Program-made: the position numbers and the translations under genes | The notes under the pieces: model-generated | Seen by the model: only the letters and a program-made list of their open reading frames with translations | Databases searched by the model: none | Told to the model about the DNA's origin: nothing | In this document: positions 257 to 42,397 of the stretch, piece after piece | Numbering within the stretch: the first letter of the stretch is position 1 | How the letters are laid out: every line of letters begins with the position of its first letter | Assembly (NCBI RefSeq): GCF_029978005.1 | Contig: NZ_JARKOZ010000146.1 | Location: 1 to 42,397, forward strand | Direction: 5' to 3' | From: Solidesulfovibrio sp. | GTDB lineage: Bacteria; Desulfobacterota; Desulfovibrionia; Desulfovibrionales; Desulfovibrionaceae | Length of the DNA stretch: 42,397 nt

Positions 257-970
257 CTACTTGCCGAGCAGGGTGGCCACGCTCGGGTGTTCGCCGAACC
301 AGTGCACCTCGCCGGAGTCGATGTCGTAGAGCGCCCCCACGACCTTGACCTTTCCGGCGGCGGCCATCTGCTTGAGCAGCGGGCTCTTGGCGTAGATGTC
401 GCTTATGGCCTGCCAGATGTTGGCTTCAATGGACTTGTTGATCAGCTCCTCCAGATCCGAGGAGGCGAAGCGGGACTTGACGGACTTGACCGCCGGCACG
501 ATGGGGGAAACCAGCTTGCCGATGTTCTCGGTGACGGGCTCGTTTTTGACCACGGCCGTGACCGCGCCGCACTTGGTGTGGCCAAGGACCACGATGAGCG
601 GCACGCCCAGGTGCTCGGCCCCGTATTCCATGGTGCCGATCTCGTCCACGGCGGCCACGTTGCCGGCCACGCGCACGGCGAAGATGTCGCCCACGCCCTG
701 GTCGAAGACGATCTCCAGGGGCACGCGGGAATCGGCGCAGGACAGGATGGTGGCGAAGGGGTGCTGGCCGCCGGCGGTGGTCTCGTGACGGCGAGCGGCA
801 TCCTGGTGCGGCGCGACGCTGGCCGCCGCCACGTAGCGCATGTTGCCTTCCTTGAGTTTGCCCAGAGCCTCGTCAGCGCTCAGTCCCGGGCCGCCGGAAG
901 AAGCCATGGCCAAGGCGCAAAGCGCGAAAAGCAATGCAGTCATGGTGGTCGCCGTGAAAAACCGTTTCAT
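257..970 (-). CDS. Periplasmic beta-class carbonic anhydrase
   Basis: Interconverts CO2 and bicarbonate. The 237-residue protein starts with a signal peptide (MKRFF, hydrophobic core, cleavage near AMA-SS at residue 24), so it should act outside the inner membrane. The zinc-site signatures of the beta class are intact: C78-A-D80-S-R82 and H131-T-K-C134-G. The ATG at 970 is preceded by GGGAGGATTCAAG, a strong ribosome-binding site. The gene has its own terminator and appears monocistronic. Exported beta-carbonic anhydrases are known in other proteobacteria and are thought to help trap or supply CO2/bicarbonate. In a sulfate reducer, a role in CO2 handling at the cell surface is an inference. 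Confidence 0.93.
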   Translation of the reverse strand: MKRFFTATTMTALLFALCALAMASSGGPGLSADEALGKLKEGNMRYVAAASVAPHQDAARRHETTAGGQHPFATILSCADSRVPLEIVFDQGVGDIFAVRVAGNVAAVDEIGTMEYGAEHLGVPLIVVLGHTKCGAVTAVVKNEPVTENIGKLVSPIVPAVKSVKSRFASSDLEELINKSIEANIWQAISDIYAKSPLLKQMAAAGKVKVVGALYDIDSGEVHWFGEHPSVATLLGK

Positions 971-29154: not shown

Positions 29155-29958
29155 ATGATCGTAGGGATGCGACAGTTTTCGCCACGTTTCCGGCGCGCCC
29201 TCCCCTTCGCGACTTCCCTGCGCGCCCTGGCCGCCTGGGCGACGGTGGCCGTCCTTAGCCTCGCCGTGGCTGCGCCCGGCGTGGCGGGCAAGTCCAGGAA
29301 GGCCCACGACGCCCCGGCCGCCCAGCAGCCCGACACTTCCGAACTCCTGGCCCGCTCGGGCCGCGAGCCGCGGAAGATCCTCCTCGTCGGCGATTCCTTC
29401 GCCCAGGGCCTCGGCCTGACCATGCCCCAATCCCTGGGCCAGAAGTGCCGCACCGCCCTGTCCAACCAGGGCAAGGTCTCAAGCGGCCTCAACTCGCCCC
29501 AATTCTACGACTGGGAGAGGGCCCTGGCCCAGTTCCTCGACGCGGAAAAGCCCGACGTGCTGGTGGTCATGCTCGGCGGCAACGACGCCAAAAACGGCCG
29601 GGGCACGCCCCAGTGGGCCCAGGACTTCACGGCCAAGGCCTCGCGTTTTTTGAGCATCGCCGCCGGCCACGGCGTGGCGGTCTACTGGGTGGGCCTGCCG
29701 CCCATGCGGGAAAAAGCCTTCAACGAGCGCGCCCGCACGGCCAACGACGCCATGCGCGCCGCCTGCGCCGCGGCCGGATCGTGCCGCTTCATCGACTCCT
29801 GGGACATCTTCGCCGACGCTTCGGGTCGGTTCTGCGCCAAGAAGACCGTGGCCGGCAAGGCCATCTCTCTTCGGGGCAAGGACGGCGTCCATTTCACAAC
29901 CGCCGGCTGCCGGCTCCTGACGGACCGCATCGTCACGGCCATGGCCTCTCCCCGCTGA
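29155..29958 (+). CDS. Exported SGNH/GDSL hydrolase (DUF459-like), first of three
   Basis: A 267-residue protein with an N-terminal signal peptide: an Arg-rich n-region, then a hydrophobic stretch ending near VAG-KS at about residue 45. The SGNH blocks are intact: LLVGDSFAQGLG (nucleophile Ser), GKVSSGLNSPQFYDWERAL, VVMLGGNDAKNG and the D-x-x-H block DGVHFT. Such enzymes add or remove acyl groups, typically O-acetyl, on sugars. Starts at 29155 and 29167 are both in frame; neither has a strong ribosome-binding site. It is followed after 52 bp by a paralogue. Substrate is unknown; an envelope glycan is inferred from location and neighbours. Confidence 0.83.
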   Translation: MIVGMRQFSPRFRRALPFATSLRALAAWATVAVLSLAVAAPGVAGKSRKAHDAPAAQQPDTSELLARSGREPRKILLVGDSFAQGLGLTMPQSLGQKCRTALSNQGKVSSGLNSPQFYDWERALAQFLDAEKPDVLVVMLGGNDAKNGRGTPQWAQDFTAKASRFLSIAAGHGVAVYWVGLPPMREKAFNERARTANDAMRAACAAAGSCRFIDSWDIFADASGRFCAKKTVAGKAISLRGKDGVHFTTAGCRLLTDRIVTAMASPR

Positions 29959-31183: not shown

Positions 31184-32324
31184 CGGGCGCGCCGGCAGTC
31201 CCGTCCGCCGCGGCCGACGCGGCCTTCTTCGCCTGGCGGCCCGCCTTGTCCCGGCCTGCGCCCTGTGCGTCCTGTGCCTGCTCGGCGCGGCCTGCAGCAG
31301 CGGCGACGAGCCGCCCAAGGCCGAGCGGTCGGACCTGTCGCCCACCGACATCTTCTCCCGGCGCGCCCCCAAGCCGACCCAGCCCGCCGAGCCCGCCGAG
31401 CCCGCCCAGACGGCCAGGACGCGGCGGTTCCTGGTCGTCGGCGACTCCCTGTCCATCAGCCTCGGCGAACAGCTCGAACGGGCCCTGGTCGGCGCGCCGG
31501 GCCTCGACTTCGCCCGCGACGGCACGAAATCCACCGGCCTCACCCGGCCCGAACTCCTCGACTGGCCGGCCCGCCTGCGCGAGCGCGTGGCCAGGGAAGC
31601 GCCGGACATCGTGGTGGTCATGCTCGGAGCCAACGACGTCATGCCCGTGGAAGGCCCGGACGGGACGCGCATCTATTTCAACAACCCGGCCTGGGCCGAG
31701 GCCTACGCGGCCAAGGCCCGGGAGATCGTGGCCATCTGCCGCGCCGCCAATCCCAAGGCCCATGTCTACTGGATGGGCGTTCCCTCCATGGGCGAGGCGT
31801 CGTTGGCCGCCGGGATCAGGCAGGTCAACGACGCCCTTTCCGGCATGTGCGCCGCCACGGACGGCTGCCGGTTCGTGGACGCCCAGGCCCCCTTTTCCGA
31901 CCCCGAGGGACGCTTCAGCCGCCACGCCCGCGACCGGGCCACAGGCGAAACCGTGCTTTTGCGCACCCCGGACGGCGTGCACCTGACCGACGCCGGGGCG
32001 AAGCTGCTGGCCGGAGTGGCCCTGGCCGTCGTGGCCGAGGCCGAGAAGCTCCCGCCGAGCGCCGGCGTGGACGAACTTCGCGCCTACGCCCGGGACGTGC
32101 GGCCCGTGGCCGAGGCCGCGCCGGAACCGGCCAGGGAGCCCGCGGCCGCCAAGGCGAGGCCCAGCGGCAAGATCTATGCCGTGAAAAAGGGCGACACCAT
32201 CCTCAGCATCGCCCGAAAGCTCGGCGTTCCCGCCGTCGACCTGGCCGCCGTCAATCCCGGAGCAGATTCCACGCGCCTGTCCCTGGGCCAGGAGCTGCGC
32301 ATTCCCCAGAAGCGCAAGCGTTAG
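31149..32324 (+). CDS. SGNH/GDSL hydrolase lipoprotein with C-terminal LysM, third of three
   Basis: A 391-residue protein. The signal sequence ends in a lipobox (LLGAACSS, Cys about residue 49), so it should be lipid-anchored. The hydrolase domain has [43 protein letters not shown] and [10 protein letters not shown]. After an Ala/Pro linker the C-terminus is a LysM domain ([30 protein letters not shown]), which binds N-acetylglucosamine glycans such as peptidoglycan. Starts at 31149 and 31158 are possible. It overlaps the preceding gene by 35 nt and meets the convergent hybrid kinase stop for stop. LysM points to a cell-wall substrate. Confidence 0.86.
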
Positions 32325-35300
32325 CGCCGTCCTTCCGCCAGTTCCAGATGCTGCCGCACGGCGGCGAGAAGCGCCTCGTGATCCACCGGCTTGGACAGGT
32401 AGCCGTCCATGCCGGCGGCCAGGAGAGCCTCGCGGTCACCGGCCATGGCGTGGGCGGTGAGCGCGATCACGGGGGAGGTAGGACGACCCTGTCTGGCCGC
32501 CGCCTCGCGGATGGCGGCAACGGCCGCCACTCCGTCGAGCACCGGCATGCCGATGTCCATCAGGATGAGGTCTGGCTGGTAGGCCAGGGCCAGGTCCACG
32601 GCTTCCCGGCCGTCCTTGGCCACGAGGACGTCGTGGCCGCAGCGTTCAAGAATGCGCCGCACGGCCAGGGCGCTCACGGCATCGTCCTCGGCCACGAGGA
32701 GGCGGCGACCGCTTATCGGGGTCGCCTCGGCTTTCCGGTCCTGTTTCCCGGCCGGTTCGTGCCCCTTTTCCCGGGGCCGGGCCAGGGGCAGGGCGCAGGT
32801 GCAGCGCGTGCCCTGGCCCACCTCGCTTTCCATGACAACGACCCCGGCCATGAGCCCCACCAGCCGGCGCACGATGGCCAGCCCAAGGCCCGCTCCCTGG
32901 AAGCGGCGCGAGAAGGAGCGCTCCACCTGGTGGAAGGCCTCGAACACGGCGTCGAGCTCCCCAAGGGGGATGCCCACGCCGGAATCGGCTACGGTGAAAA
33001 GCACGCTGCCCTCGCCGGCGGCGTTGGGCGGCGCGGCCCATACCTCGACGCCGATGCCGCCCTTGCGGGTGAACTTCACGGCGTTGCCGGCCAGGTTGTA
33101 GAGGATCTGCCGCACCCGGCCCTCGTCGCCGAAAAGGACATCGGGCACGCCGGGCGCGACGGACACGCTCCACGCGATGCCGGCCTCGCGGCAGGCCGGC
33201 TCGAAGGCGGTGGTGACCGCGGCCAGGAGGTCGTCCAGCCTGAACGGCTCGCTTTCGAGCCCGAGCTTGCCCGATTCCACGCGCGACAGGTCCAGGATGT
33301 CGCTTAAAAGCCGCGTCAGTCGGCGGCAGGCGACCAGGGAGGCATCCACGTACTGGCGCTGCTCGGCGGTGAGTTCGGTGTCGGCCAGCAGCTGGGCCAT
33401 GCCGTGGATGCCGTTTAAGGGCGTGCGCAGTTCGTGACTCATGTTGGCCAGGAACTCGCTCTTGACGCGGCTGGCCGTTTCCGCCGCCTCCTTGGCCGCC
33501 AGCAGGGTCGCCGCGTCGCGGCGTCTGGCCGCCAGACGCCAGACCGTATCCATGAGCAGCGCGCCGAAATGGACGTCCGCCTCGTCGTAAGCCTGTTCCT
33601 TGCCGGAAAGCACCAGCAGCGCGGCCACGGTTTCCCCGGCCACGGCCGGCACGCAAAGCGCCTGCCGGCCGCCGTCTCCGGCTTCCTGCACGACCTCGGG
33701 TCGACACAGGCGCACGGCCTGCGCCCAGCTTCCCATGGCTTCGGCTTCGCTCGGGCCGCTGTCCCACAGCGCCCGGCAGGCCAGCTCGCCGCTGGTGGCC
33801 GCCAGGTGCCAGCGCCCGTCCGCCTCGCCACGCGTGAATACGCCGCAGCGGCCGCTTCGCGTCATCCGCCGGGCTTCGGTCGCTGCATGGGCGAACAAGG
33901 CCTCGTCGGCGTCCGTTTCCATCAGGGTCAGGCCGAAAAGGCTCTTGAGGCGCGCCTCGCTGATCCGCAGCAGCTCCTCGTCCCGCCGACGCTCCGTGAC
34001 GTCGTGGAGAAACACGAGCGCCCCGTCCTCGCCGTCCCAGCATACGGGTACGGCCGCCACAGCGGCGATGAACCGCTCCCCGTCAAGGCGCAGCATGTCG
34101 TGTTCGGAGGTGGGAACCATGTCCTTGTCTTCGTTGAGGCGGCGTATGCGTTCCCTGACCCTGTCGCGGTACTGCGGCGCTACCCGCTCCAGCACGGGTG
34201 TGCCGACGAGCCCGCCGGGGACCGGCACGCCGAAGAGCTGCCGCGCCATGGGGTTGACATAGGCGAACCGACCCCGCGTCTGCACGAAGATGCCGGAGGG
34301 CGCGTTTTCCACCAGCAGCCGGAAACGCTTCTCGCTTTCCGACAAACGGCGCTGCGCCTCCAGTCGATCGGTGACATCCGTGACGATGGAATAGAGCAGG
34401 GTCCGGTCGCCCAGGCGGATCGGGCCGGAATAGACCCTCACGTCGCGGATGCCGCCGTCGGCGAGCCGGTGGCGGAAGTCGAAGACCCGCCTGCGGCCCT
34501 GCCTGGCCTCCGTCATGGCCGTGAGGACAGCCTCCGGGGTCATGGTGTTGATTTCCGACATGCGCCGCCGCCTGAACTCGTCCCGAGTCCAGCCGTAATA
34601 GGCGCAGGCCGAGGGATTGGCGTCCACCACGGACCCGGTGTCGGGGTCGATGAGCAGCATCACGGCGTGGTTGTTCTCGAAAAGGCTCTGGTAGCGGGAT
34701 TCGCTTTCGATCAACTGGGAGATCAGCCGGTTTCGCGCCAGACGGCGTACCAGCAAAAGCCCGAGGGCGACCGTCACCGGCGGAAAGAGGGCAAGCACCG
34801 GGATCCCGACTTCGCGCAGCGTCTCGAAGGCCACGGGCAGCGGCAGCAGGAAAGTGCAGGCCAGCACGCAGACATGAAGCACGAGGCCGAAGAGCAGGAG
34901 CTCCCACGCGGTGAGCTCGGCGAGATCCCTGCCGCGCCACCGGCTCCAGGCCAGGCCCAGGCCGCCCGAAACCACGGTGGTGGCCAAGCCCATGGCCATG
35001 CCCACGCCGCCCTGGAAGGCGCGCAGCGTCGCGGCCATGACCACGGCCAGGCAGGTCGGCAGCGGGCCGAAGAACAGGCCGGCGACGCCAAGCAGGATGG
35101 ACCTGGTGTCGAAGAAAAGGCCCGGCCGCATCTCCCAGGGATTCAGCATCACGCCCATGGCCATGCCGCCGAGGCACAGGCCGGCCAGCAGGCGCTTTCC
35201 CCAGGAGCCGCGCCCGATCTCCCCGCGCGTGAAGGAGTCGTAGAGGAAGGCCAGGGCGACCAGCAGGGCGGCATTGTTGACCAGCCCCAAAAACACGCTC

Positions 35301-35329
35301 TTGGAAATCGGCTCCATCACGACGCCCAT
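32321..35329 (-). CDS. LytS-type hybrid sensor histidine kinase with 5TM, two PAS, GAF and receiver domains
   Basis: A 1002-residue signalling protein. Residues 1-190 are a 5TM receptor of LytS/YhcK type ([45 protein letters not shown]). Then come PAS domains at about 215-330 and 345-460 and a GAF-like region at about 485-620. The kinase core has [30 protein letters not shown] and [12 protein letters not shown]. The C-terminal receiver has [25 protein letters not shown] and YLSKPVD. I used the ATG at 35329; ATGs at 35317 and 35407 are alternatives. The 5TM-LYT domain is associated with cell-envelope or pyruvate-type signals in characterised members. Its signal here is unknown. The neighbouring SGNH genes suggest an envelope link. 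Confidence 0.88.
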
Positions 35330-35481
35330 CCTCAGGTACGGCTCCCGGGAAACCAGGAGAGACGGCCAGTTGATGCCAGGGTACACCACCTTCTCAAACC
35401 CTACCATCGCCGCCCGGGAAAAAAAAGCCAATCCTCCTTTCCCTGACGAGGGGGCGCGCGTCGAAAACGCTCGGGCCGGCC

Positions 35482-36849
35482 TCAATCCTCGCCGTACTTC
35501 TTGAGCTTCTTGTGCAGGGTGGCCCTCGTGATGCCGAGCACCCGGGCCGCCTCGCTCTTGTTGCCGTCGCAGGAGTCGAGCGTGGCCAGGATGACCTCGC
35601 GTTCCACGTCGTCCAGGGGCCGGCCGGCCAGACCGCTTGCTCCGCCCTCGGGCGCGGCGGCGGAAGTCGGCGGGGCCTCCCGGGGGTCGCAGAGGGGCAG
35701 TTCGCGCTCGGTGACGTATTCGCCGACGGACAGGATCACGGCCCGCTCCACGGCGTTTTCGAGCTCGCGCACGTTGCCCGGCCAGGCGCAGCGCACCAGA
35801 TGGTCCATGGCCGCCGGAGTGAAGCCCTTGATGCGCTTGCGGTTCTTCTCGGCGAACCGACCAAGAAAGAACTGGGCCAGAAGCGGAATGTCCTCGACCC
35901 GCTCGCGAAGGGGCGGCACCGGCACGGACACCACATTGAGGCGGTAGTAGAGGTCCTCGCGGAAGCGGCCGGCCTCGACCTCCTTTTTGAGGTCGCGGTT
36001 GGTGGCGGCCAGGATGCGCACGTCCACGCCCAGGGGTTTGTCGCCGCCCACCCGCTGGATCTCGCGCTCCTGGATGACGCGCAGGAGTTTGGCCTGAATG
36101 GGCTGGGCGATCTCGCCGATCTCGTCGAGGAAGATGGAGCCCTTGTCCGCGGCCATGAACCGGCCTTCGCGGCGGCGCTCGGCCCCGGTGAAGGCCCCCT
36201 TCTCGTGGCCGAAAAGCTCGGATTCGAGCAGCGTTTCGCTCAAGGCCGCGCAGTTGACCGCCACCAGCGGCCCGGCCGAGCGGGGGCTGCCGGCGTGGAT
36301 GGCCCGGGCCACGAGCTCCTTGCCCGTGCCGGACTCGCCGGTGATGAGCGCCGTGGCCTCGGTGGGGGCGACCATGCCGACCAGGGTGAAGAGCTCGCGC
36401 ATGGCCCGGCTGGCCCCGATGATCTCCGGCCCGGCCGGCGCATCGGCCAGCTTGCGCCGCAGCGTCGCGTTCTCGGCGGCCAGGCGCATGTGATCCAGGG
36501 CCCGGTCCAGGGTCAGGCGCAGCACGTCGAGGTCCAGCGGCTTGGTCAGGTAGTCGTAGGCCCCCTTTTTAAGCGCGGCCACGGCCGTCTCCACCGAGGA
36601 ATAGGCCGTCATGATGACGACCGGCACGGCCGGGTTGTATTCCTTGATCCGCGAGAGCGCCTCCATGCCGCCCATGCCGGCCATGCGCACGTCGAGCAGC
36701 GCCGCGTCGTAGGCCTTGGCCCGCACCATCTCCACGGCCGTCTCCCCGTCCGCCGCGCCCTCCGGGGCGAAACCCCAGCCGGAAAGCACGGTACGCAGCA
36801 TGGACAGGTGCCCGGGATCGTCGTCAACTACGAGTATCTTCGCCTGCAT
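35482..36849 (-). CDS. NtrC-family sigma-54-dependent response regulator
   Basis: A 455-residue bacterial enhancer-binding protein. The receiver covers residues 1-120 ([14 protein letters not shown] with D53, MTAYSS, YLTKPLD). The AAA+ domain has Walker A GESGTGKE (171-178), the sigma-54-contacting GAFTGA loop (218-223), Walker [12 protein letters not shown] and [14 protein letters not shown] Fis-type helix-turn-helix ends the protein ([27 protein letters not shown], described by its start and end residues 429-455). The ATG at 36849 follows GGAGAAGAGG. It overlaps the kinase gene upstream by 26 nt. It resembles ZraR/HydG in layout. The likely target is the sigma-54 promoter at 38871-38887. 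Confidence 0.95.
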
Positions 36850-38632
36850 CCTCTTCTCCGTTCGTCGCGGCCCCGCCCGAGACGGGCAAAAAGACCGTGG
36901 CCAGGGTGCCGCCCCGGGGCCGGGCGGAAAGCACGATCTCGCCGCCATGGGCCGTCACGATCTTGTGGGCGATGGGCAGCCCGAGGCCCGTGCCGCTGGC
37001 CTTGGTGGTGTAATAGGGATCGAATATGCGGTCGCGGTCGGCGGCATCGATGCCGCCGCCGTCGTCGGCCACGGACACGAAGGCCCGGCCGTCCGGACTG
37101 ATGCCCGTGGCCAGGCGCATGACGCCGCCGGAATCCATGGCCTGGATGGCGTTTATGCACAGGTTGAGCAGGGCCTGGGACAGCCTGTCCGGGTCGGCCT
37201 GGATTTCGGGGCCCTCGCCGACGCCCTCAAGATCGACCGTCACGCCCCGGGCCACGGCGTCGGGCCGGGTCAGGCGGGCGGCGTGGGCGGCCAGGTCGGA
37301 CAGGCGCACGGGCCGGCGCACCAGATCCGAGGGACGAGCGAACTCGATCAGCTCCGAGATGACGCGGTTGAGGCGATCCACCTCGCGCACCATGACCTCG
37401 GCCGCCTGCCGGTCCTCGCTGCCCGGGGCGAACTTGGCCCCGAAATAGGCGGCGTAGCCGCGTATGGAACTAAGCGGATTGCGAATCTCATGGGCCACGC
37501 CGGCGGCCAGGTTGCCCACGGCGGCGAGCTTCTCGCGACGCCGCACTTCGGCCTCCAGGCGGCGCACCTCGCGCAGGTCGCGCAGCACCACCAGCGCCCC
37601 CACCACCGAGCCCTCCTCGGCGACCACCGACGAGACAGAGACGCCAAGAGGGGCCTCGTCCCCGCCGGCCAGGCGCAGGTCCATCTCGCGCTCGCCGGCT
37701 TCCGCGGCGGCCAGAAGGCCTTGCGGCAGCACCTCGGCCACGACCCGGCCCGTGAGCCCGCCCGGGGCGACCCCGGCCAGGGCCTCGGCCGCGCCGTTGG
37801 CCATGGCCACCCGGCCGTCAGGGGACACGAGCAGCAGCCCGGCCGGCATGGCCGCCACCACTTCCGAGGCCAGCGCCGTGGTGTGGCGCAGGGCCCTGCG
37901 TTGGGCCCGGTAGCTCTGGGCCCAGAACAGGGCCAGCACGCCGCCGAGGCCAAGCACGAGGAGCACCGCCGCCGTGGTCAGGGTGTTTTGCAGGTCCGCC
38001 CGCCGGGCGGCCTCGATGGGGGCCACGTCCAGGCCCACGAAGATGTCCAGGGGCACGCCGCGCAAATCGCGCCGCCCGCCCGGCGCGTCGCAGTCGTCGG
38101 TGCAGAAAAAGGATTTGTCGCGCATGGGCCCAAGCCCGTGCATGCCGTGGGGGCCGCGCCCGCCGAGGGAGGGCACGAAGCGACGGTAGACCAGGAAGGA
38201 TTGCCGACCGTCCTCCTCCTCCCGGGCCAGCCGCCATTTTTCGGTGGCGTCCGCAGCGAGCTTGGCCATGACTTCGGGGGCGAAAAGCTCCTGGCCGATG
38301 CGGCCGGCGTCGTTGTGGGCCACGATGCGGCCGTCGGCGTCGGTGACGGCGATGTAGAAGATGCCGGGCTGGTCGGCCATCTCCTCGAGGAGATGCTGGA
38401 GGCGGATCTCCGCGCCGAAACCGCCGCGCATGCCGGTGCGCGCCCCGGCTTCGAAGGACTTGATGAGCGCCGCGCCTTTTTCCAGCAAAAGCTGGGTCAT
38501 GTACTGCTTTTCCCGGCCCAGGTCGATGACGGCCATGGCCACCACCACCGCCGCCAGGATGCCGGCCGCGCCGATGACCAGAAGCGGCGAGGACGCGCCG
38601 CCAAAGGGATTCTTCCTGCGAAAGGGCCACAT
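36824..38632 (-). CDS. ZraS-like membrane sensor histidine kinase
   Basis: A 602-residue kinase paired with the NtrC-family regulator. Two membrane helices (about 16-36 and 218-238) enclose an extracytoplasmic PDC/sCACHE-like sensor domain. This contains FYIAVTDADGRIVAHND and, at residues 161-181, a segment rich in potential metal ligands: H162, M164, H165, M170, C177, C181. A PAS domain follows (about 255-355), then the phosphoacceptor GVAHEIRNPLSSI (H381), N-box LNLCINAIQAM and GTGLGLPIAHKIV. The gene overlaps the regulator by 26 nt and diverges from the DUF2318 operon. ZraS-type sensors in E. coli respond to periplasmic zinc or envelope stress; a metal or thiol signal here is inferred. Confidence 0.92.
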   Translation of the reverse strand: MWPFRRKNPFGGASSPLLVIGAAGILAAVVVAMAVIDLGREKQYMTQLLLEKGAALIKSFEAGARTGMRGGFGAEIRLQHLLEEMADQPGIFYIAVTDADGRIVAHNDAGRIGQELFAPEVMAKLAADATEKWRLAREEEDGRQSFLVYRRFVPSLGGRGPHGMHGLGPMRDKSFFCTDDCDAPGGRRDLRGVPLDIFVGLDVAPIEAARRADLQNTLTTAAVLLVLGLGGVLALFWAQSYRAQRRALRHTTALASEVVAAMPAGLLLVSPDGRVAMANGAAEALAGVAPGGLTGRVVAEVLPQGLLAAAEAGEREMDLRLAGGDEAPLGVSVSSVVAEEGSVVGALVVLRDLREVRRLEAEVRRREKLAAVGNLAAGVAHEIRNPLSSIRGYAAYFGAKFAPGSEDRQAAEVMVREVDRLNRVISELIEFARPSDLVRRPVRLSDLAAHAARLTRPDAVARGVTVDLEGVGEGPEIQADPDRLSQALLNLCINAIQAMDSGGVMRLATGISPDGRAFVSVADDGGGIDAADRDRIFDPYYTTKASGTGLGLPIAHKIVTAHGGEIVLSARPRGGTLATVFLPVSGGAATNGEEDAGEDTRS

Positions 38633-38657
38633 GTCGTTCTCGTTGGGCTGCGGCGAA

Positions 38658-38676
38658 CTGTATGCATTTCATACAG
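38658..38676. promoter_or_regulatory. Inverted repeat CTGTATG-N5-CATACAG, candidate enhancer site for the NtrC-type regulator
   Basis: A perfect 7-bp inverted repeat with 5-nt spacer lies 26 bp upstream of the kinase start and about 200 bp upstream of the sigma-54 promoter. Both distances fit a binding site used to activate the divergent operon and to control the kinase gene itself. AT-rich sequence (TTATTTTAATA, 38682-38692) next to it looks like a minus-strand promoter region. The rest of the 365-bp gap, apart from the sigma-54 site, shows no convincing gene. Confidence 0.5.
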
Positions 38677-38870
38677 ACCGTCTTATTTTAATACGGCAGC
38701 AGGCCCGTCCTGTCCAGAAAGCAGACGCTTTTTCGCGCAGCTCTGTGCATCCGACGGCCGGCCGGACCGGGGTTGCATGGCCCGTTCCATCTGTCGTTTC
38801 GCGCCTATCGGCCCGGGATCGCGGGAAGGACGGAGCGGCTTGCGACCAAACCCGCCCCGGGTCCTTGACC

Positions 38871-38887
38871 TTGGCATGTGGGTTGCT
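38871..38887 (+). promoter_or_regulatory. Sigma-54 promoter of the DUF2318-ABC operon
   Basis: TTGGCATGTGGGTTGCT matches the sigma-54 consensus TTGGCACG-N4-TTGCT at all positions but one. The invariant GG (38873-38874) and GC (38885-38886) have the required 10-nt spacing. Transcription should start near 38898, about 100 nt before the DUF2318 gene. The divergently encoded regulator carries the GAFTGA loop needed to activate it. Confidence 0.85.
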
Positions 38888-38997
38888 ATTTCCAGGCGGT
38901 CAAACCCGACTTGGCAGGTACGGATTACCCCGAGCGTCCGCCGCTTCGAACCGGAACGGCCAAAGCGCCCCACCGCAACCCCAAAGGAATATGCGCC

Positions 38998-39480
38998 ATG
39001 CCCCAGCTTCCCAGACCCGCCCGAACCGGCCTCGCCCTGCTCGCCCTGGCCCTCGCCCTGGCCGGCCTTTTCTCCCTGCCCGCCCCGGCCGAAGCCCTGC
39101 TCGGGCTTTTTTCCGACGTCAAGACGCTTTCACCCAAGGACGACGCCGTGACCATCCCCCTGGCCGAGGTCTCGGACGGCAAGGCCCATTTCTACACGGT
39201 ATCGGCCGGCGGCAAGGAAATACGCTTCTTCGCGGTCAAAAGCCCGGACGGCAAGGTGCGCACGGCCTTCGACGCCTGCGACGTCTGCTTCCCGGAAAAG
39301 AAGGGCTACCGCCAGGAAGGGGAATTCATGGTCTGCGTCAACTGCGGCCGCCGCTTCCACGCGAGCAAGATCGGCGAGATCCACGGCGGGTGCAATCCGG
39401 CCCCCCTGGCGGCCGAGACGGCGGGCGAGTCCCTTCGCATCACCATGGCCTCCCTGGCCGCCGGCGGGCGCTTCTTCTAG
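38998..39480 (+). CDS. Exported Cys-rich DUF2318 protein
   Basis: A 160-residue protein with a cleavable signal peptide (hydrophobic core about 11-28, cleavage near AEA-LL at 33). The DUF2318 domain follows (AHFYTVSAGGKEIRFFAVKS). Its metal-binding pattern is C94-x2-C97, C113-x2-C116, and H129-x2-C132, with H121 nearby, suggesting a bound metal or Fe-S/heme-like centre in the periplasm. In Campylobacter the P19/iron-uptake locus encodes a DUF2318 protein with FtsX-type permeases and an ATPase, the same partners as here. Neither P19 nor FTR1 is present in this window. AAAGGA precedes the ATG at 38998. The permease starts 14 nt after its stop. Confidence 0.88.
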   Translation: MPQLPRPARTGLALLALALALAGLFSLPAPAEALLGLFSDVKTLSPKDDAVTIPLAEVSDGKAHFYTVSAGGKEIRFFAVKSPDGKVRTAFDACDVCFPEKKGYRQEGEFMVCVNCGRRFHASKIGEIHGGCNPAPLAAETAGESLRITMASLAAGGRFF

Positions 39481-39494
39481 TCGAGGAGCGGGTC

Positions 39495-40658
39495 TTGAAC
39501 ATTCTCACCATCCCCCTTCGCAACCTGCGGCGCAAGCTCCTGCGCACCCTGCTCATGATCGCGGTCTTTTCCATCGGCGTGGCCTCGGTCACGGCCCTGC
39601 TCGAACTGTCCAAGGCCGTGGGCGAGAGCCTGGAGGAGAAGCTCGCCGCCTACGGAGCCAACATCCTGGTCACGCCGCGCACCGAAACGCTGTCCGTGAG
39701 CTACGGCGGCATGGCCCTTGGCGACGTGTCCGTGGACATCCGCTCGCTCACGGAAGACCAGACCATCGCCGCCATAAACGGCATCCACCACAAGGACCGC
39801 TTAAGCGCCGTGGCCCCGAAGTTCGCCCTGCTCACCAAGGTCGGCGAGACGCCGGTCGGCGTGGTGGGCGTGGATTTCGACCAGGAGATGCGCATCAAGA
39901 GCTACTGGCACGCCCAAAGCGGCGACTTGCGCCTCGGCGAGGGCGAGATTCTCGCCGGATCGGAGGCGGCGACCCGTCTCGGGCTCTCGCCGGGCGGCCA
40001 GGTCGTGGTGGAGGGCAAGCCCTTCACCGTCTCCGGCGTGCTCGGCCCCACGGGCTCTGGCGACGACGCCATGCTTTTTTCCGACCTGCACGCCTTGCAG
40101 CGGGCGGCCGGCCGGGAAAACCGGGTGCACTTCGTGGAGGTGGCCGCGCTTTGCTCGGGCTGTCCCATCGAGGAGATCACGGAACAACTGGCCGCCGCCC
40201 TGCCGGGCACGGACGTCAAGGCCATGGGTCAGGTGGTGAAAAGCCGCATGATGACCGTGGAGTTCGTCGAGCGCCTGGCCGTGGCCGTGTCCGGGGTCAT
40301 CCTGCTCACGGCTTGCGTCATGATCGGGCTGTCGGTCTTCTCCTCGGTCAACGAACGCAAGAACGAGATCGGGCTGCTGCGGGCGCTCGGCTATTCCAAG
40401 GCGTCCATCTTCACGCTCATGAGCCTCGAAGGCGTGACGCTGGGGCTGGCGGCGGCCGTGGTGGGCCAGGCGGCGGGATTCGCCGCGAGCTCCCGGCTCA
40501 TGGCCCTGCTCGACCTCGGCGCGGCCGCGCCGACCTTCGCCCCGGCCCAGTTCGCGGCCGTGTTCGCGGCCGTGGCCCTGCTCTCGGTCCTGGCCTCCCT
40601 GCCGCCGGCTCTGGCCGCCGCGCGCATCGAGCCGTCCCAGGCCCTGGTCATGCTCTAA
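39495..40658 (+). CDS. FtsX/MacB-type ABC permease with periplasmic CxxC motif
   Basis: A 387-residue inner-membrane protein starting at TTG 39495, which follows GAGGAGCGGGTC. One N-terminal helix (LLRTLLMIAVFSIGVASVTALLEL) is followed by a MacB-PCD-like periplasmic domain of about 230 residues and three C-terminal helices. The FtsX signature NERKNEIGLLRALGYSKASIF lies between the last helices. The periplasmic domain has ALCSGCPIEE (C220, C223), unusual for the superfamily. The layout matches LolC/MacB-type mechanotransmission permeases that work on periplasmic substrates rather than transporting across the membrane. It lies between the DUF2318 and ATPase genes. Confidence 0.9.
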   Translation: MNILTIPLRNLRRKLLRTLLMIAVFSIGVASVTALLELSKAVGESLEEKLAAYGANILVTPRTETLSVSYGGMALGDVSVDIRSLTEDQTIAAINGIHHKDRLSAVAPKFALLTKVGETPVGVVGVDFDQEMRIKSYWHAQSGDLRLGEGEILAGSEAATRLGLSPGGQVVVEGKPFTVSGVLGPTGSGDDAMLFSDLHALQRAAGRENRVHFVEVAALCSGCPIEEITEQLAAALPGTDVKAMGQVVKSRMMTVEFVERLAVAVSGVILLTACVMIGLSVFSSVNERKNEIGLLRALGYSKASIFTLMSLEGVTLGLAAAVVGQAAGFAASSRLMALLDLGAAAPTFAPAQFAAVFAAVALLSVLASLPPALAAARIEPSQALVML

Positions 40659-40686
40659 CCTATCTGAAGAAAAGGAAAATATCCTC

Positions 40687-41358
40687 ATGCTGATCGCCGA
40701 GGACGTCGTCAAGAGCTTTGCCGCCAAGGATCAGGCCGCTCCCGTGCTGCGGGGCGTCTCGCTTTCCGTCTCGCCCGGGGAGTTCGTCTGCATCGTGGGC
40801 CGCTCGGGCTCGGGCAAGTCCACCCTGCTCAACATCCTCTCGAGCCTGCTCACCCCGGACGCCGGGAGCGTGCGCTACAAGGGGCGCGACCTGGCCGCCA
40901 TGGGCGAGGGCGAACGCAACAAGCTGCGGGCCACGGACTTCTCCATGGTCTTCCAGATGCATCACCTGCTCCCCTATCTGACGGCCCGGGAGAACGTGCT
41001 CGCGCCCTTTCTGTCCGGGCTGCGCCCGGTGTCCGCCGCCCGCCGCCGCCAGGCCCTCGCTTGCCTCGACCGGGTGGGACTGGCCGACAAGGCCGACCGG
41101 CTGCCGGGCGCGCTCTCCGGCGGCGAGCGCCAGCGCGTGGCCATCGCCCGGGCCCTGGTCACCGAACCGGGCATCGTCTTCGCCGACGAGCCCACGGGCA
41201 GCCTCGACGGCGACACCGGCGGCCAGATCATGGACATCCTGTCGCGGCTCAACGCCGATGGCCTGACCGTGCTCATGGTCACCCACGAGCCCGCCTACGC
41301 GGCCATGGCCTCCCGGGTCATCGAGATCCGCGACGGGAGGATCGCCGCCGCCCATTGA
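40687..41358 (+). CDS. ABC transporter ATPase (LolD/MacB type)
   Basis: The 223-residue motor subunit for the preceding permease. Visible motifs are Walker A GRSGSGKST, Q-loop VFQMHHLLPYLTARENV, signature LSGGERQR, Walker B IVFADEPTGSLD and the H-loop VTHEP. The EPTGSLD form is typical of LolD/MacB/FtsE ATPases. It begins 28 bp after the permease stop; the upstream GAAGAAAAGGAAAATATCCTC gives a plausible ribosome-binding site. It is the last gene of the DUF2318 operon. Confidence 0.93.
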   Translation: MLIAEDVVKSFAAKDQAAPVLRGVSLSVSPGEFVCIVGRSGSGKSTLLNILSSLLTPDAGSVRYKGRDLAAMGEGERNKLRATDFSMVFQMHHLLPYLTARENVLAPFLSGLRPVSAARRRQALACLDRVGLADKADRLPGALSGGERQRVAIARALVTEPGIVFADEPTGSLDGDTGGQIMDILSRLNADGLTVLMVTHEPAYAAMASRVIEIRDGRIAAAH

Positions 41359-41511: not shown

Positions 41512-42397
41512 ATGGGCAACCTGAAGTTGGGCGTGAAGCTGGTCGGCGGCTTTCTCCTTTGCGCCGCCATCACCCTGGTGGTCGGCCTTGTCGGCCTCAT
41601 GGGGATATCGGGCCTCACCAAGAGCCTGACCCAGGTCACCGAAGTCGACCTGCCGGCCGTGCGCGACCTGCAGGCGATCAAGATCGCGGGCGAATCCGTG
41701 CGCGTGGCGCAACGGACCCTCAACGTCCCCGGCCTTTCGGAAAAGGACCGCAAGCGCCAGTACGAAAACATCGCCAACCTGCGCGAGAGCTACCGAAAGT
41801 CCTGGGAGGAATACGAGAAGCTCCCCAAATCCCCGGAAGCCGAAAAGCTGTGGCGGGAATTCGTGCCGGCCTGGCAGGAGTGGGTCAAGGTCAACAACGA
41901 GACTTTCGACCTGGCCCGGGAGTGGGACAAATCCGACATCGACGACCCCGACGCCCTGGAGAACAAGCTCGCCCAGTTCCGGGGCGACCACTACAAGCTC
42001 CTGACCGACGCCGAGTCCCTGGTCCTTTTCGGCACGCCCTTAAGCGGCGGCGACGATTCCACCAAGTGCAACTTTGGCCGATGGCTCGACGCCGAGGGGC
42101 GCGACATCGCCAATCCCGTCTTCCGTAAGACCCTGACGGAAGTTCGCGCCATCCACGACAAGCTGCACCAGTCCGTGGGCAGGCTCAAGGAACTGGCCGC
42201 CAGAAACGCCCCGCGCGAGGAGCAGGCCGCCATCGTGCGCGCCGACCTCTTGCCGGCCGTGGCCGCGACCATGGGCCATTTCGCCACGCTCTCGCAGGAA
42301 GTGGCCCGGGTATCCGCCATCTGCGCCAAGATGCGCGTCGCTTCCATGGAAACGGTGCGTTCCAAGCAGGTCCGCTGCTTCGAGCTGCTCGACAGCC
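41512..42397 (+). CDS. Methyl-accepting chemotaxis protein with periplasmic CZB-like domain, N-terminal part
   Basis: The first 295 residues are present and the gene runs off the right edge. A membrane helix (about 10-32, FLLCAAITLVVGLVGLMGIS) is followed by a helical periplasmic region starting like a four-helix-bundle ligand domain (DLPAVRDLQAIKIAGESVRVAQRTL). Residues 155-225 match the CZB zinc-binding pattern: H160, C186 in CNFGRWLDAEG, H215 and H219. This 3His/1Cys arrangement and its spacing resemble the zinc site of DgcZ-type CZB domains. The signalling domain lies outside the window, so the MCP assignment rests on the N-terminal half. The strong ribosome-binding site GGGGGAGGGAAAT fixes the start. 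Confidence 0.82.
   Translation, partial: MGNLKLGVKLVGGFLLCAAITLVVGLVGLMGISGLTKSLTQVTEVDLPAVRDLQAIKIAGESVRVAQRTLNVPGLSEKDRKRQYENIANLRESYRKSWEEYEKLPKSPEAEKLWREFVPAWQEWVKVNNETFDLAREWDKSDIDDPDALENKLAQFRGDHYKLLTDAESLVLFGTPLSGGDDSTKCNFGRWLDAEGRDIANPVFRKTLTEVRAIHDKLHQSVGRLKELAARNAPREEQAAIVRADLLPAVAATMGHFATLSQEVARVSAICAKMRVASMETVRSKQVRCFELLDS

Follow-up and report, generated by a model that had tools for sequence, protein, structure and literature searches.

Here, we analysed a stretch of 42,397 nucleotides (hereafter 'the window'; contig NZ_JARKOZ010000146.1 of assembly GCF_029978005.1) from Solidesulfovibrio sp., a member of the Desulfovibrionaceae, in which a two-component system diverges from three genes encoding an FtrD-like (DUF2318) protein, an FtsX-type permease and an ABC ATPase (hereafter 'the trio'). 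An earlier sequence-only reading had proposed that the two-component pair controls the trio via sigma-54. Checks of open reading frame coordinates, Pfam domains and sequence confirmed its account of the genes, namely a kinase-regulator pair with an intact GAFTGA loop, a divergent DUF2318-FtsX-ATPase operon and 365 bp between the kinase start and the FtrD ATG on the opposite strand. The window genome (G000) comprises 4.82 Mb in 224 contigs and is 96.3% complete. The following features are central to the locus:

35482-36849, minus strand: NtrC-type response regulator, ZraR-like, GAFTGA intact (Pfam Response_reg, Sigma54_activat, HTH_8)
36824-38632, minus strand: membrane histidine kinase, ZraS-like, with a predicted periplasmic Cache-like sensor (Pfam PAS, HisKA, HATPase_c)
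38688-38716, minus strand: possible sigma-70-like promoter of the kinase operon, TGGACA-N17-TATTAA
38774-38789, no strand assigned: conserved element TGCATGGCCCGTTCCA, candidate regulator-binding site or divergent -24/-12-like site
38872-38887, plus strand: predicted sigma-54 -24/-12 promoter, TGGCATG-TGGG-TTGCT, expected start near 38898
38998-39480, plus strand: FtrD-like (DUF2318) protein, ATG at 38998, 160 amino acids, N-terminal helix
39495-40658, plus strand: MacB/LolC-type permease, TTG start, single copy (Pfam MacB_PCD and FtsX)
40687-41358, plus strand: ABC ATPase, LolD/MacB-like (Pfam ABC_tran)
41512-42396, plus strand: chemoreceptor with 4HB and CZB zinc-binding domains (Pfam), continuing past the window end

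The -24/-12 site upstream of FtrD

The sequence TTGGCATG-TGGG-TTGCT was found exactly where it had been placed, at 38871-38887 and with GG-N10-GC spacing. It deviates from TGGCACGNNNNTTGCW by one mismatch and is the only one-mismatch site in the window. With up to two mismatches, the window holds six matches versus a mean of 7.44 in shuffled sequences, and 76 of 100 shuffles hold at least six, so that the motif alone is weak evidence.

Conservation within the genus raises the box above chance. FtrD is present in 12 of 14 Solidesulfovibrio genomes, the window genome included, and twelve loci were fetched from the 11 others. Two of these loci stem from G002 (listed with 8% contamination), whose contig C3 carries the whole locus twice (L016 and L017), at a distance of about 218 kb and with equal BLAST identities to the window. 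An unguided alignment of 13 intergenic regions shows invariant TGGCA and TTGCT, while spacer and flanks vary. The same box is the best match within 400 bp upstream of FtrD in all twelve fetched loci, and for none of them did more than 1 of 200 dinucleotide shuffles reach its score (a test that left out the window locus and in which two of the twelve are the G002 copies). The sequence-only reading had named joint conservation of the divergent arrangement and the -24/-12 element as supporting evidence, and the two are indeed conserved together in all 12 genus loci fetched as well as in a single genome from g4, a neighbouring genus. A column-conservation script was left unused, since the genus loci had been selected by a pattern fixing the box letters and its value of 100% is circular; the conservation rests on the unguided alignment together with the shuffle and random-window controls.

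The latter control extends to the order Desulfovibrionales, from which we compiled 92 FtrD loci including the genus set (all those listed outside the window genome, minus one below the cut-off). Eight of these are of the type of the Fet/P19 iron-uptake locus of Campylobacter ('Fet loci'). A sigma-54-like site, defined by a score of at least 0.82 within 400 bp upstream of FtrD, was found in 32 of the 84 non-Fet loci compared to 78 of 1680 random windows from non-Fet loci, and in none of the eight Fet loci. The control is conservative because its windows were not kept clear of the region upstream of FtrD. On the reverse strand, ten of the 84 upstream regions reach the threshold, eight of them in Solidesulfovibrio, where the element at 38774 lies. 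By group, sites were found in Solidesulfovibrio (12/12), Humidesulfovibrio (g2, 5/5), Pseudodesulfovibrio (g7, 9/18), Fundidesulfovibrio (g19, 3/6) and in g4, g15 and g17 (1/1 each), with none in the remaining groups; loci within one genus are not independent in these counts. In the g7 alignment, a count by eye finds TGG...TGCA at the aligned place in 16 of the 18 rows. Although matches with up to two mismatches are as frequent in shuffled sequence as in the window, retention of the box amid drifting spacer and flanks and its enrichment upstream of FtrD across the order make a functionless chance match very improbable. The main text of the D. vulgaris sigma-54 regulome paper does not mention DUF2318 (PMC4641369), and a 2025 sigma-54 survey, in the portion available, mentions FtsX-like permeases in general terms (PMC12316311).

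The kinase-regulator pair and the second intergenic element

The kinase narrowly misses the curated ZraS model (469.3 bits, cut-off 479; expectation value (E) 1.2e-140), and the regulator does not reach that of ZraR (584.7 bits, cut-off 760), which is nevertheless its closest solved relative (1ojl). The regulator of G002 is 92% identical to that of the window. A maximum-likelihood tree built from 28 regulators places the sequences from Solidesulfovibrio and g4 in a single clade (95/95) within a ZraR-like group; four genus loci that were copies or incomplete were omitted, and long branches triggered a warning from the program. Beyond this clade, we examined eight ZraS-like paralogue loci, all of which carry, on the divergent side, a sigma-54-like site and Met- or His-rich secreted products (in L169 only about 1.5 kb away). 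The ZraP model matches four of five scanned products below its cut-off, while two other products matched no Pfam family. The window pair therefore resembles a ZraSR paralogue and, judged by these neighbourhoods, looks like one that has the FtrD trio as its divergent partner. One of the eight paralogue loci lies in the window genome itself (L161, contig C125): this second ZraSR-like pair faces a Met/His-rich product and a divergent sigma-54-like site, has GAFSGA as its activator loop, and its regulator differs from the window regulator at the C-terminus. Near the ZraP-type pair of L169 (G010) lies a FeoB gene.

As in E. coli ZraPSR, a ZraS/ZraR-like kinase and a GAFTGA regulator diverge from a sigma-54 target. 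We did not class the locus as ZraPSR, since both proteins score below the curated cut-offs and the divergent target is FtrD-FtsX-ABC instead of ZraP. According to the portion available of one study, ZraSR is tied to zinc and envelope stress (PMC7657598). The kinase had previously been described as a metal- or thiol-type sensor, a label that our data do not establish: a low-confidence model of the sensor (mean predicted local distance difference test (pLDDT) 66.8; 8 sequences) matches best the sensor domains of WalK, KinD and DctB and predicts a Cache/PDC-like fold, and a C-x-x-D-C cysteine pair is invariant in eight aligned FtrD-linked sensors.

The earlier reading had overlooked a second conserved element in the intergenic region, at 38774-38789. 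It was found in all twelve genus FtrD loci and in G005, which lacks the trio; its TGCA...TTCCA persists in G005 and, by eye, occurs as a variant in G012. Its retention after loss of the trio indicates that the element serves the kinase operon at least partly. In the ten FtrD loci where both were found, 54-58 bp separate the element from the kinase's -35-like hexamer (45 bp in G005), while its distance to the sigma-54 box varies from 35 to 96 bp. The sigma-70-like pattern to which the hexamer belongs occurs in 12 of 15 regions, counted with a regular expression written after viewing the alignment; a consensus promoter scan called no sigma-70-like promoter for the kinase operon. As judged by eye, a different palindrome takes the place of the element in g4 (TTCATGTTTGCAGGAAACATGAA in L103), and L162 and L163 resemble L103 here.

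Two roles are conceivable for the element: a regulator-binding site that works in either direction, or a divergent -24/-12 site. In the latter case it would be a sigma-54 promoter of the kinase operon, serving autoactivation, and not an enhancer. In the genus loci, its minus strand has the sequence TGGAACG-N4-ATGCA, spaced as GG-N10-GC, its persistence in G005 fits such a role, and E. coli ZraR acts on zraSR itself, as stated in the accessible part of the study cited above (PMC7657598). However, two conserved positions depart from the consensus, the distance to the -35-like hexamer would suit a bound protein, and a minus-strand match at the same threshold occurs in 2/8 paralogue loci. We thus consider autoactivation from this element a tenable explanation, albeit not the one we favour.

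But does the adjacent pair open the promoter of the trio? The layout is conserved: a divergent kinase is present in 12/12 fetched genus loci and the regulator was seen in 11/12 (a contig end shortens it in L024, it is split into two BLAST segments in L022 and the contig of L025 ends inside the kinase), and the g4 genome G046 shows the divergent layout as well. Several observations argue that the circuit is not a dedicated one. The pair persists in the absence of the trio in four related genomes: G005 and G012, which have no FtrD and in which kinase, regulator and chemoreceptor are kept, now about 0.3 kb apart, with no sigma-54-like site left, and the g4 genomes G055 and G069, which have the pair without FtrD. 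The trio of Pseudodesulfovibrio, Humidesulfovibrio and Fundidesulfovibrio has sigma-54-like sites and no adjacent pair, and many trio-bearing genera score no such site upstream. Given its retention in G005, the element serves more than the trio. Furthermore, TGCRYNNNNCRTTCCA gave 71 matches in 14 genus genomes versus 41 for a reversed control pattern, an excess too moderate to define a regulon; 14 of the 71 are the site before the kinase, and four other places that were fetched lack the circuit's FtrD, kinase and regulator genes. A wider regulon of the element is hence not claimed.

These data would also agree with an operon that depends on sigma-54 but is opened by another activator, with the adjacent pair regulating itself, the chemoreceptor or other genes. 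The window genome contains 54 activator-domain matches, 51 of them strong, so that the activator is inferred from position, and the retention of the pair without the trio and the promoter-like sites without an adjacent pair (g2, g7, g19) point in the same direction. Within the genus, in contrast, the trio is always found beside the pair (12/12 loci), and the family members of the pair examined here face a divergent sigma-54-like site. We therefore regard another activator as rather unlikely and infer activation by the adjacent pair. Of the original claim of control, the conserved layout and the -24/-12 site stood, while pair and trio turned out to be separable.

FtrD and its permease-ATPase partners

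FtrD matches Pfam PF10080 (116.5 bits, cut-off 26.3; E 6.8e-34), a family labelled 'membrane iron-sulfur containing protein', and has cysteines at positions 94, 97, 113, 116 and 132. The Cys-xx-Cys of both loops is invariant in 43 sequences. A sequence search for solved FtrD relatives found none, and a profile search of the PDB remained without match. A structure model built from the 43 sequences reaches block-mean pLDDT values of 88-97 over residues 41-160. Foldseek against the PDB listed 50 matches with a probability of at least 0.98, only one of which had E <=0.001 (9.1e-4); we take all 50 listed matches to be Rieske oxygenases or ferredoxins. For targets of ferredoxin size, template modelling scores (TM-scores) range from 0.39 to 0.61 when normalised by target length. 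In the model, C94-x-x-C97 follows a strand, succeeded by a hairpin, C113-x-x-C116-G and GGCNPxPL with C132. Going by Rieske anatomy, the two cysteine loops would take the place of the Rieske ligand loops and C132 that of the Pro loop. The spacing from C94 to C113 is 19, compared to 18 between the ligand cysteines of 11 Rieske proteins.

FtrD is hence predicted to adopt a Rieske-like fold and probably holds an Fe-S or other metal/redox centre. Some results argue against this assignment: normalised by query length, the TM-scores reach only 0.34-0.45, hhalign against the 11 Rieske proteins gave P = 0.14, and the Pfam Rieske model matches 1 of 43 members (E 0.1). Zinc-finger models weakly match more members (PHD 32/43), and a viral fold library contained no FtrD match with E <=0.001. 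Based on the hhalign and Pfam results and the empty PDB profile search, kinship with Rieske proteins at the sequence level was dropped and the claim limited to the fold. FtrD would share with Rieske [2Fe-2S] ferredoxins the predicted fold and the positions of the ligand loops. It differs in lacking a significant sequence match and in carrying Cys-xx-Cys in both loops where the ferredoxins carry Cys-x-His and Cys-xx-His. Our literature search found no paper joining DUF2318 and Rieske.

The permease and the ATPase score below the cut-offs of LolCE, LolD and MacB throughout (the ATPase reaches 218.4 bits with the LolD model, cut-off 307.75). In common with MacB and LolCDE machines, the locus combines a MacB_PCD and FtsX permease with a LolD-like ATPase; in contrast to them, it has separate genes, a single permease, sub-cut-off scores and FtrD as a companion. 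The trio could accordingly be an efflux or lipoprotein machine for envelope or metal stress, resembling MacB or LolCDE and unrelated to iron or electron transfer. Besides the resemblance of permease and ATPase to LolC, LolD and MacB, the link of ZraSR to zinc and envelope stress, given in the available part of the source, would fit this view (PMC7657598), as would three loci (L121, L123, L124) in which FtrD without FtsX and ABC genes is followed by a heavy-metal P-type ATPase gene in the same direction. The sub-cut-off scores, the constant companionship of FtrD (78/84 non-Fet loci) and its membership of the Campylobacter iron-uptake locus oppose it, and we consider such a function doubtful.

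FetMP-FetABCDEF, the P19 locus of Campylobacter jejuni, likewise contains genes for a DUF2318 protein, an FtsX-type permease and an ABC ATPase in the same order. It differs in having two FtsX-type permeases instead of one, and its DUF2318 protein has eight predicted membrane helices and a YHS domain, compared to 160 amino acids in the window FtrD. The window trio stands behind a sigma-54-type promoter, and FTR1 and P19, whose absence had been noted for the locus, have zero matches each in the whole window genome at its given completeness (control genomes with a match: 4/14 for FTR1, 1/14 for P19). Given the lack of both, the single permease and the short FtrD, the locus was not classed as Fet/P19. 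No biochemical function has been assigned to DUF2318/FtrD. As far as the available portion of a 2023 Campylobacter study goes, fetA, fetB, fetC and fetD are each important for growth when iron is limiting, and the function of FetA is not known (PMC10783030). The accessible part of a 2018 study states that DUF2318 genes almost always cluster with FTR1/P19 genes (PMC6083913).

Desulfovibrionales reverse this rule. In 199 genomes of the order, each at least 90% complete, FtrD is present in 87 (86 above the curated cut-off), whereas FTR1 and P19 occur in the same eight genomes, all with FtrD. Hence, 79 of 87 FtrD-bearing genomes lack both, which separates the FtrD-ABC machine from iron permeation; the suggestion of a 'stripped-down' system was right, yet this is the usual state in the order. 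The one-permease FtrD-FtsX-ABC trio was found in 78 of 84 non-Fet loci (77 genomes, 22 genera), and two of the six others are interrupted by contig ends. Seven of the eight Fet loci have at least two FtsX matches, with 22-28% identity to the window FtsX. Fur-like sites are not enriched upstream of FtrD, as judged by two consensus patterns without a usable positive control, since FtrD sits inside the operon in the Fet loci.

Proposed mechanism and occurrence beyond the order

Judged by sequence, the locus acts like a ZraSR-type switch over the ABC half of the Fet system. With moderate confidence, we propose that a ZraSR-paralogue two-component system controls, via sigma-54, a FetMP-independent periplasmic iron/thiol-redox module made of FtrD, FtsX and ABC. 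The kinase would sense a periplasmic signal via its Cache-like domain and phosphorylate the GAFTGA regulator, which would then bind the element at 38774-38789, a site also serving its own operon, and activate sigma-54 RNA polymerase at the conserved site at 38872-38887. FtrD would be a membrane-tethered periplasmic protein with a predicted Rieske-like fold, the Cys-xx-Cys ligand loops of which probably hold an Fe-S or other metal/redox centre. The one-permease MacB/LolC-type machine, probably a homodimer, would spend ATP on driving FtrD or a partner in a periplasmic redox or iron-release cycle, as the iron phenotypes of Campylobacter fetA-fetD suggest. Because the genome has no FTR1 or P19, released Fe2+ would enter via FeoB, a domain of which is present in 14/14 genus genomes. 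A FeoB gene adjoins the regulator in three g4 genomes (L103, L162, L163). The iron link of the trio is drawn by analogy with the Campylobacter mutants (PMC10783030), and zinc, copper or thiol stress may be involved instead. A copper-stress transcriptome of D. alaskensis G20 was consulted for ZraP only (PMC8836040).

Outside the order, the best 80 of 364 FtrD relatives found include seven loci from Deferribacterota. Six of them (L179, L182, L202, L225, L228, L243) have FtrD-FtsX-ABC followed by a regulator in the same direction at about +3300, and these same six have an upstream sigma-54-like site scoring 0.85-0.95; the seventh, L234, carries the trio without regulator or upstream site. For L182 and L228, Pfam bears out both the kinase and the Sigma54_activat domains. 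In the maximum-likelihood tree, these regulators fall outside the ZraR-like group. Their loops read GSFTGA (three), GSFTSA (two) and GAFTGA (one); GSFTSA departs from the canonical loop at one position more than GSFTGA does, which makes the activity of these two regulators uncertain. More tentatively, we suggest that FtrD-FtsX-ABC is a widespread FetMP-independent periplasmic machine in which an ATP-powered MacB-type permease might drive an all-Cys Rieske-fold protein to transfer electrons or to release iron or thiols in the periplasm, and that coupling to sigma-54 two-component systems, a different one each time, has arisen at least twice, in Desulfovibrionaceae and in Deferribacterota. The component families are already known; their combination, the FetMP-independent spread and the predicted Cys-Rieske fold were not found in the literature searched. 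As a minimal three-gene form, the trio makes the FtrD-ABC machine accessible to study. The predicted fold with its four loop cysteines yields a specific hypothesis on the cofactor, and the inducing signal can be sought with a defined promoter, that of the conserved sigma-54-type switch.

The chemoreceptor adjoins the trio in every genus locus whose contig extends far enough and is a syntenic companion and possible member of the circuit. It was dropped as a candidate sigma-54 target, since no sigma-54-like site precedes its gene in the trio-less G005 and G012. Clustering of gene neighbours was contaminated by antisense open reading frames and yielded leads only. Genes with NrfD, nitrate reductase gamma or Fer4 domains, which we take to be DsrM-, DsrK- and/or DsrP-like, stand no more than about 7 kb from the trio in g2 (L056, L058, L060, L075, L079), g8 (L073, L081) and 15 of 18 g7 loci. 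Geobacter relatives (L231, L233, L237, L240, L246, L250) have FtrD without a detectable trio and a kinase match 1.4-1.5 kb upstream. Elsewhere, the window encodes a carbonic anhydrase (257-970, minus strand), a DUF459/GDSL-type protein (29155-29958, plus strand) and a hybrid kinase with a 5TMR-LYT domain (32321-35485, minus strand).

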